A DNA stretch of 64,000 nucleotides from Serratia liquefaciens. Lineage in GTDB: Bacteria > Pseudomonadota > Gammaproteobacteria > Enterobacterales > Enterobacteriaceae. The position numbers were made by a program, and so were the translations under genes. Shown one piece after another: positions 20,383 through 22,483 of this stretch. The notes below the pieces were generated by a model. The model was given only the letters and a program-made list of their open reading frames with translations. It did no database searches and was not told the DNA's origin. Every line of letters starts with the position of its first letter. Position 1 is the first letter of the stretch. Where the stretch lies: positions 4,401,019 through 4,465,018 of the forward strand of contig NZ_CP088930.1 of the NCBI RefSeq assembly GCF_027594825.1, read 5' to 3'.

Positions 20383-21318
20383 GTGATTGAGCTACGCCAG
20401 CTGCGGCAATTTGTCGCCGTCGCCGAAGAGATGAGCTTTCACCGCGCCGCCGAGCGTTTGCACATGGCGCAGCCGCCGTTGACGGCCGCCATCAGAAAGA
20501 TTGAGCAGGAGCTGGGTGTCCCCTTGCTGGAACGCGGCAACCGGATCACGCGCATCACCGAGGCAGGACAGGTGTTTCTGATCGAGGCGCGGCGGACCTT
20601 GGCGCAGTTTGAGCGTACCCTTGGCAATACCCGACGTGCGGCGCGTGGCCTGACGGAATCGCTGCGGCTGACCTTTGTCGATAGCACTGTGAATGCCCTG
20701 CTGCCGGGGATACTGCGTCGGTTTCGTCAGGCGCATCCCCTGGCGGAGTTCCATTTGCAGGAGGCCACCACCGCCGAACAGCTGATCGCGCTGCGCGACG
20801 ATCGTGCCGATATCGGCATGGTGGTGCTGCCGGTGGCACCGCAGGATGACCTGCAGATTCTGCCTTTTTTATACGACCGCATGGTACTGGCGCTACCGGA
20901 TCACCACCCTTTGGCGACGCAACAGCAGGTGACGTTGAGCGATTTGGCCGATCAACCCTGGATACTGTTTCCGGCGCATTATGGGCCGGGGATGCACGCG
21001 GCGATTTTGCAGGCCTGTGCGGTGGCGGGGTTCAGCCCGCTTATCGTCCAGGAGGCGCGGCAGATGCAAACCATCGGTGGGCTGGTGGCCGGTGGCGTGG
21101 GGATTGCGCTGATGCCAGCCCTGTTTGCGGTCCTGAAATCACCCGGCGTGGTGTTTCGTGAACTGAGTGGCGCAGGTAGCCCGGTGCCTTATACCTTGGC
21201 GCTGGCCTTACGCACCCCCTCAGCGCTGACCGAGGCATTTTGCCGTATCGCTGGCGAACAGGCTGCGGCCTGGCAACGCGCGGTGATTGACAACCGGCGC
21301 GTTGGGGGGATACCTTAA
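20383..21318 (+). CDS. LysR-family regulator
   Basis: Regulator of 311 residues starting with GTG (AAGG seven bases upstream). The N-terminal winged helix is MIELRQLRQFVAVAEEMSFHRAAERLHMAQPPLTAAIRKIEQELGVPLLER. The co-inducer domain begins near residue 92 (LRLTFVDSTVNALLPGILRRF). It resembles BenM/CatM-like proteins in the AERLHMAQPPLTAAI helix. It is divergent from the SDR gene, its probable target. Its stop codon lies only 4 bp before the leader peptide of trpS, so trpS leader transcription may start inside this gene. Confidence 0.9.
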   Translation: MIELRQLRQFVAVAEEMSFHRAAERLHMAQPPLTAAIRKIEQELGVPLLERGNRITRITEAGQVFLIEARRTLAQFERTLGNTRRAARGLTESLRLTFVDSTVNALLPGILRRFRQAHPLAEFHLQEATTAEQLIALRDDRADIGMVVLPVAPQDDLQILPFLYDRMVLALPDHHPLATQQQVTLSDLADQPWILFPAHYGPGMHAAILQACAVAGFSPLIVQEARQMQTIGGLVAGGVGIALMPALFAVLKSPGVVFRELSGAGSPVPYTLALALRTPSALTEAFCRIAGEQAAAWQRAVIDNRRVGGIP

Positions 21319-21322
21319 AAGC

Positions 21323-21376
21323 ATGAATATGCCGATGCACTCCACTCACAGCCAGTCTTGGTGGCGCCTCCTCTGA
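21323..21376 (+). CDS. Regulatory leader peptide with tandem Trp codons
   Basis: A 17-residue open frame MNMPMHSTHSQSWWRLL ending in TGA. Two adjacent TGG codons lie at 21359-21364 directly before a set of competing stem-loops and a terminator, upstream of a tryptophanyl-tRNA synthetase gene. This is the arrangement of a ribosome-mediated attenuator that senses charged tRNA-Trp. The ATG at 21323 has a distant G-rich ribosome site (21304-21310); ATGs at 21329 and 21335 are alternatives. Its purpose is regulatory and the peptide itself probably has no function. Confidence 0.82.
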   Translation: MNMPMHSTHSQSWWRLL

Positions 21377-21433
21377 AGGCGGCACGGGTATTCACACCTC
21401 TTTTCAATGCCGCCGGTTCTGGCGGCATTTTTA
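21365..21433 (+). terminator. Transcription attenuator of the trpS paralogue
   Basis: Terminator: AATGCCGCC (21406-21414), loop GGTTCT, GGCGGCATT (21421-21429), then a T run. Segment GGCGGCA at 21378-21384 can instead pair with TGCCGCC at 21408-21414, forming an antiterminator. It can also pair with CGCC at 21365-21368, inside the leader coding region just after the Trp codons, as a pause or protector hairpin. A ribosome stalled on the two TGG codons would mask the 21365 segment and favour the antiterminator. Confidence 0.82.
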
Positions 21434-21442
21434 TTGCGTTGA

Positions 21443-22483
<1,041 letters not shown>

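Follow-up and report, generated by a model that had tools for sequence, protein, structure and literature searches.

How may a second tryptophanyl-tRNA synthetase (TrpRS) gene be controlled in a genome that already carries a canonical one? This question is raised by trpS2, which lies within a 64-kb stretch of DNA (G000:C1:4401019-4465018), analysed as a whole and referred to in the following as the window, that belongs to a single-contig genome of 5.35 Mb. A sequence-only reading of this stretch has proposed a ribosome-mediated attenuator with tandem Trp codons in front of the gene. Our sequence comparisons and folding models make it very probable that such an attenuator controls this auxiliary TrpRS, in which stalling of the ribosome on UGG codons would turn trpS2 on. 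The proposal has therefore been supported by sequence and modelling; it has overlooked the placement of the promoter together with a probably leaderless transcript, a hairpin over the Shine-Dalgarno (SD) sequence of trpS2, and a possible translational layer of control. The arrangement suggests that in many gamma-proteobacteria a second TrpRS is kept silent until the first one fails, with the ribosome directly reading the result of aminoacylation.

The second tryptophanyl-tRNA synthetase

TrpS2 (21476..22483, + strand, as for all features below) is a class I synthetase of 335 amino acids with a PF00579 domain, which scores above the cut-off of TIGR00233. With proteins named Serratia liquefaciens and S. 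quinivorans it shares 97% identity, and the organism is therefore regarded as a Serratia. Among solved structures, the nearest relatives of TrpS2 are annotated as tryptophanyl-tRNA synthetase (II) (PDB 2a4m and 1yi8, 412 bits), which we take to be the TrpRS II of Deinococcus radiodurans, while the other TrpRS listed reach at most 217 bits. The canonical trpS is located elsewhere in the genome, and its product (TrpS1) shares 31% identity with TrpS2. Kinship to a solved TrpRS II and the presence of another TrpRS in the same genome assign TrpS2 to the auxiliary TrpRS II type. In the alignment of both proteins TrpS2 reads TGDRATG against SGAQPSG in TrpS1, and a residue within this stretch presumably matters for indolmycin sensitivity. 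We infer a use of TrpS2 as backup enzyme, which could plausibly be called upon when natural inhibitors of TrpRS, such as indolmycin, are encountered, and for which the attenuator gives a testable trigger. An indolmycin-resistant second TrpRS has been reported in Streptomyces (PMC9437257, PMC6804068), and a TrpRS II has been described as induced on radiation damage (PMC9437257). At E ≤ 1e-60, TrpS2 has been detected in 22 of 30 genomes of the genus and in 67 of the 394 genomes of an order-wide sample; no relatives have been found in the viral contigs searched.

Architecture of the trpS2 leader

Between the end of the upstream lysR (21318) and trpS2, a leader ORF of 17 codons encodes MNMPMHSTHSQSWWRLL (21323..21376; ATG at 21323, stop TGA at 21374-21376), in which the two Trp codons stand side by side (21359-21361 and 21362-21364). 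Overlapping with its 3' half and extending beyond its stop codon, a series of competing pairings has been found. The 1:2 hairpin, or anti-antiterminator (21361..21385), joins segment 1 (21361-21369) to segment 2 (21377-21385) with one G-G mismatch; the 2:3 antiterminator (21378..21414) pairs GGCGGCA at 21378-21384 with TGCCGCC at 21408-21414; and the intrinsic terminator (21406..21435) is composed of a hairpin at 21406-21429 and a T-tail at 21428-21435. Further downstream, a hairpin of -20.0 kcal/mol (21430..21480) holds both the trpS2 SD sequence AGGAG (21464-21468) and the start codon (21476-21478), and a 3:4 pairing (21407..21453; 21407-21416 with 21444-21453) has been seen for the stalled state of the kinetic model, in which segment 4 would be taken from the SD hairpin. 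The counterparts of the 1:2 and 3:4 helices in relatives covary, as described below. The 17-codon leader with two adjacent TGG codons, the overlapping segments with a T-tailed terminator, and a second trpS just downstream had all been read from the letters beforehand, and each of them has been recovered; the trpS2 start lies 42 bases past position 21433.

Taken by itself, a short ORF with WW is no more frequent in the window than expected by chance: among short WW ORFs (10-25 codons) on both strands of the 64 kb we have counted 4 ATG starts, compared with 0-6 in ten mononucleotide shuffles, and 3 of the 4 can be in-frame ATGs of the trpS2 leader itself. The fold energy of the leader up to 21500 has a z-score of -2.67, with 1 of 200 shuffles being equally stable. 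The trpS2 leader stands above chance because WW leaders are conserved, the stems covary, the fold is of unusual stability, and the leader is the sole covariance-model match at E ≤ 0.01 among the few candidates scored in its own genome.

Conservation of the leader and covariation of its helices

Regarding conservation, 102 TrpS2 loci have been compared (80 named ones, the window and 21 from the genus, partly from the same genomes), which contain 84 distinct leader sequences. In 101 of the 102 loci the gene is preceded by an in-frame leader with adjacent Trp codons; the sole exception, L076, offers only 231 bases 5' of the match. The record titles of these loci name Serratia, Hafnia, Edwardsiella, Aeromonas, Vibrio, Photobacterium, Moritella, Shewanella, Alteromonas, Paraglaciecola and Pseudoalteromonas, as well as MAGs named Desulfobacterium and Betaproteobacteria. 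The leader peptides vary from group to group except for the WW motif. In the order-wide sample, 59 of the 67 TrpS2-bearing genomes show a WW leader before TrpS2 (58 by pattern search and one, with WWY, by eye). Conservation of the WW codons in related genomes, one of the two signatures by which the attenuator was proposed to be recognised, thus holds across families.

The other signature, covarying stems, has been found as well. The alignment A1 comprises 26 non-redundant leaders out of 32, with the six Serratia, L012 and Aeromonas rows left out; L041, a WW leader of divergent structure, was dropped before clustering to the 32 sequences. For helices 1:2 and 3:4 together, 93.8% of the pairs in A1 are standard and 9 of 15 have changed on both sides, and the covariation score has been reached by none of 500 shuffles; the column pair 94:162, for instance, is C-G in 13 sequences and U-A in the other 13. 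The consensus returned by RNAalifold, unprompted, is the same 1:2 plus 3:4 structure. The alternative helices 2:3 and 4:SD, with 90.5% of the cells paired, show little covariation: 190 of 500 shuffles have as many doubly changed pairs, and 11 of 500 attain the covariation score. For the core of the segment-3 hairpin, 82.7% of the cells are paired (score attained by 9 of 500 shuffles); its wider region folds better than the shuffle mean in 26 of 26 relatives, and the region of the SD hairpin is likewise more stable than the shuffle mean in 26 of 26. Kinship among the sequences makes the p-values given throughout overstate.

A covariance model built from A1, i.e., without any Serratia or Aeromonas sequence, matches the window at 21350-21484 with 41.8 bits (E 9.3e-10); in the Serratia loci L010, L005 and L103, the 3:4 pairing is part of the model match. 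Within its own genome the window element is the only match at E ≤ 0.01 (scoring there covered no more than 8 of the 1562 candidates from the first look), and in the order sample matches at E < 1e-6 occur in 35 of 394 genomes, all 35 directly upstream of TrpS2 as judged by coordinate comparison. The Aeromonas loci are scored weakly (E 2.7e-5 to 0.17), and L041 is not found by the model. A class-wide search under stricter filters, with few candidates scored, has returned the own genome only (1 of 369 at E ≤ 0.001). At the gathering score no Rfam family, including T-box and Trp_leader (RF00513), matches in the window, and none does in 20 related loci.

Promoter position and start of leader translation

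The best sigma70-type promoter of the trpS2 leader lies within the 3' end of lysR (21287..21316) and combines TTGACA (21287-21292) with TACCTT (21311-21316) across an 18-nt spacer; it is a weak site, and the predicted +1 is the A of the leader ATG. This placement is widespread. In 35 leaders (the 32 non-redundant ones with L134, L135 and L152; L153 is not included), the gap between the end of the -10 box of the best promoter and the leader ATG is 6-8 nt in 28 and exactly 6 nt in 22; over 40 mononucleotide shuffles, a gap of 5-9 nt occurs in 11% (standard deviation 4%). In most of the other seven leaders, either a TAnnnT at a distance of 6 nt or an upstream ATG in frame can be seen by eye. Because a gap of 6 nt puts the +1 on the A of the leader AUG, and since the -10 box ends 6-8 nt before the ATG in 28 of 35 cases, the trpS2 leader mRNA is probably leaderless. 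Pairing to the anti-SD at -5 kcal/mol or below has been found for 10 of 35 leader starts vs 33 of 35 trpS2 starts, against a background of 17%. The leader of the window is one of these 10; a G-rich upstream stretch (-9.3 kcal/mol) could act as an SD sequence. As the lysR stop lies 4 nt 5' of the leader, read-through from lysR is also possible.

Switching in folding models

At equilibrium, folding does not yield a general switch. When the ribosome is masked, the SD accessibility with the ribosome at the second Trp codon (W2) exceeds that at the stop codon in only 15 of 84 sequences, and when helices are locked, the 2:3-locked state exceeds the hairpin-locked state in only 4 of 26, with none reversed. 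Most sequences remain in the OFF state whatever the ribosome position, and the switch therefore needs kinetic trapping. Accordingly, a kinetic model has been used in which the RNA grows co-transcriptionally, moves are allowed only over barriers below a threshold, and no pairing is permitted under the ribosome; it has been scanned in 3-nt steps for a limited set of ribosome positions.

For termination, 24 leaders of the Serratia, Aeromonas and Hafnia type have been modelled. For a ribosome whose A site is on the second Trp codon, at a barrier of 7 kcal/mol, 19 of 24, including the leader of the window, form the antiterminator and lose the hairpin, 5 of 24 show no switch, and in 4 of the 19 switchers the hairpin is incomplete at the stop codon; at barrier 5 the hairpin is lost in 19 of 24 as well. 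The leader of the window switches only if the A site holds the second Trp codon. If the first one is in the A site, the terminator forms at barriers 5 and 7 alike; if the codon following WW is, the terminator forms at barrier 5; and for a ribosome at the stop codon the hairpin is only partial at barrier 5.

For translation, the SD sequence of trpS2 has been followed in 32 leaders. At barrier 7, mean accessibility amounts to 0.50 with the ribosome at W2 vs 0.14 at the stop codon (20 higher, 1 lower, 11 ties), and barrier 9 gives 21 higher, 2 lower and 9 ties; the result is barrier-dependent, with 13 higher, 7 lower and 12 ties at barrier 5 (p 0.06). Along the leader, accessibility is 0.20 six codons upstream, 0.46 at the first Trp codon, 0.50 at the second, 0.50 at the next codon and 0.14 at the stop. 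Three dinucleotide-shuffled sets of 32 sequences each show no effect (higher/lower 9/6, 6/9 and 6/11). Such a predicted opening, which would correspond to translational attenuation of the erm/cat type, is concentrated in the Vibrio-type leaders, which by eye lack a U tract directly after the hairpin: of these 26, accessibility is higher in 19, lower in 1 and tied in 6, vs 1 higher and 5 ties in the six other leaders, the ties including all three Serratia representatives. For the leader of the window (L001) the values are 0.6 vs 0.6, and a regulated opening of its SD hairpin is not robustly predicted by the model. In a finer-step run of eight leaders, the stalled-state 3:4 pairing forms in the window, and it does not form in the Serratia leader L005.

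Proposed mechanism and alternative explanations

From these features we propose that transcription begins directly at the leader AUG or beside it, and that the mRNA from which the leader peptide is translated is probably leaderless. If charged tRNA-Trp becomes scarce, e.g., by Trp starvation or by inhibition of the canonical TrpRS, the ribosome would stall on the tandem UGG codons and cover segment 1, so that segment 2 could capture segment 3 ahead of the terminator hairpin and RNA polymerase would read into trpS2. In Vibrio-type leaders, segment 3 would then be passed on to segment 4, which is otherwise paired with the SD sequence, and translation of trpS2 would be opened too. If charged tRNA-Trp is plentiful, the ribosome would reach the stop codon and cover segment 2, segment 3 would fold locally, and trpS2 would be off; this local fold corresponds to the terminator in Serratia and Aeromonas and to a long hairpin in Vibrio-type leaders. 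More tentatively, and with a confidence that falls just short of even, a conserved gamma-proteobacterial family of leaderless relay-type attenuators may be postulated, in which one stall both blocks termination and unmasks the ribosome binding site by handing segment 3 from 2 to 4. Such attenuators would control a backup TrpRS II, and the Trp-codon leader would persist only as long as the enzyme serves as backup, having been lost in lineages that lost the canonical TrpRS.

The direction of this regulation might be questioned for the Vibrio-type leaders. There, the default 1:2 plus 3:4 structure would leave the SD sequence open, whereas stalling would favour 2:3 and allow segment 4 to bury it, so that trpS2 would be off in starvation; the unprompted RNAalifold consensus, when read statically, indeed gives this sign. 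Such a reading ignores the local segment-3 hairpin, better than the shuffle mean in all 26 relatives, which beats 3:4 unless segment 2 protects segment 3. As the kinetic model moreover yields the canonical sign at barriers 7 and 9, and the local hairpin in Serratia and Aeromonas is a terminator, compatible with the canonical sign only, we consider the opposite sign unlikely. Slightly less likely still is autogenous translational control, in which the synthetase itself would act on the hairpins and the leader ORF would be secondary. Autogenous control of synthetases exists, e.g., for thrS of E. coli, and a conserved SD-sequestering hairpin beside the start codon would suit it; it leaves unexplained, however, both the tandem Trp codons of 101 in 102 loci and the predicted peak of SD opening at these codons. 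Quite improbable is a role in trans of the peptide or of the terminated leader RNA, as reported for peTrpL/rnTrpL of Sinorhizobium meliloti, whose trpL sRNA likewise starts with its ATG (PMC7298713); variation of the peptide between groups outside WW argues against a peptide function. An ordinary lysR terminator beside a chance ORF, for which the end of lysR at 21318 and the chance-level frequency of short WW ORFs in the window might speak, has a negligible probability, as it is contradicted by leader conservation, promoter spacing and covarying stems across many genera.

The leader and the presence of a canonical TrpRS

The occurrence of the leader can be compared with that of the canonical enzyme, and this presence/absence pattern represents a natural experiment on synthetase control vs gene redundancy. 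All 59 genomes of the order sample with a WW leader also carry a canonical TrpS. Of the 60 readable genomes that have both enzymes, 59 carry the leader, vs none of the 6 with TrpS2 alone (Fisher p = 8e-8, uncorrected for kinship). In these six (G580, G679, G423, G444, G694 and G757) no match to a canonical TrpS has been obtained, so that TrpS2 is the only TrpRS detected, and no WW leader has been found within 340-400 nt upstream of the aligned start; the completeness of G679 is only 79%, and for the more distant of these genomes the actual start of TrpS2 is uncertain. Since G423, G444, G694 and G757 belong to one family, the six amount to about three independent cases. The one readable genome with both enzymes and without a leader (G557) has a TrpS2 of 43% identity, and another one with both enzymes (G701) is not counted among the readable genomes as its contig is cut near trpS2. 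Before TrpS2 of G580 (L136) and G679 (L143), apparent remnants of the leader structure without tandem Trp codons can be seen by eye, and those in G580 suggest a decay of the leader after loss of the canonical gene.

Relation to known attenuators

As classic enterobacterial case of such control the sequence-only reading has named the trp biosynthesis operon, and rightly so: the own genome has a trpL separately, at its single match to Trp_leader (RF00513; G000:C1:553828), with the peptide MNKQTSLLRWWRTSLSRAV and an SD-like stretch before the trpL ATG, both assigned by eye. The trpS2 leader resembles this system in its tandem Trp codons followed by Arg, in the 1:2/2:3/3:4 logic and in a U-tailed terminator. 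It differs in having a synthetase gene as target, a probable start at the AUG, an extra hairpin over the SD sequence of the target, and no match to Rfam; a likely leaderless start and a coupling of termination to SD release are absent from the textbook trp attenuator. An attenuator that senses the charged tRNA made by the very synthetase it controls is known from the pheM leader of E. coli pheST, where pheST encodes the primary synthetase. In PMC1262725, pheST is named as gamma-proteobacterial synthetase attenuator. In contrast to pheM/pheST, the target of the trpS2 leader is an auxiliary paralogue, and the leader has not been found where TrpS2 is the only TrpRS detected.

No described equivalent for trpS in this group was known to the sequence-only reading. 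This has held insofar as no report of a proteobacterial trpS attenuator has been found in the literature as far as its text was accessible; an article by Lopatovskaya et al. from 2010, which reportedly deals with the attenuation of aminoacyl-tRNA operons, may contain such a prediction, and we claim no priority. Beyond the group, Vecchione and Sello are said to have described a trpS attenuator of Streptomyces in 2010. Further papers report a candidate attenuator before trpS2 of S. avermitilis (PMC1262725), and, for S. lividans, a TrpL2 leader with one Trp codon before trpS and a trpL leader that starts at its ATG (PMC8079986). Because Streptomyces trpS attenuators have been reported, attenuation of trpS as such is not unprecedented. 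Both systems share a Trp-codon leader before trpS, a leaderless leader (S. lividans) and downstream hairpins. The leaders described here differ by their occurrence in Proteobacteria, by two adjacent Trp codons instead of one in TrpL2 of S. lividans, by the SD-sequestering hairpin, the proposed hand-off to 3:4, and the evidence from covariation and distribution; the likeness refers to leader features. A paper on Shewanella regulons (PMC3223726) names biosynthetic attenuators, and the word trpS is absent from its accessible text. Within the accessible literature, we have not found a description of the proteobacterial family, of its combination with SD sequestration, of the probable leaderless start in this group, or of the link to redundancy.

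Further loci

A few loci deserve mention on their own. L041, from a betaproteobacterial MAG by its title and thus outside the gamma-proteobacteria as labelled, carries a WW leader and a T-tailed hairpin before TrpS2. At L179 (G584:C69) an intact-looking WW leader is followed by a TrpS2 that matches only query residues 4-136. At L178 (G701:C7:1-300) and L076, the contig starts near TrpS2 and unrelated sequence is located where the leader would be expected, possibly a mobile-element junction. In the order sample, six genomes have weaker covariance-model matches (E 3.4e-5 to 0.0084) and two a second match, none of them upstream of TrpS2; seven of the eight places have been inspected (G610 excepted), and we treat these matches as chance or unexplained. 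The second weak matches, L144 (G398:C1:831630-831752, E 1.5e-4) and L145 (G422:C8:37607-37729, E 1.9e-3), are from one genus and both contain TGGTGG and a GGAGAT site, and that of L144 lies directly upstream of an ORF of 382 amino acids which by eye resembles an iron-type alcohol dehydrogenase.
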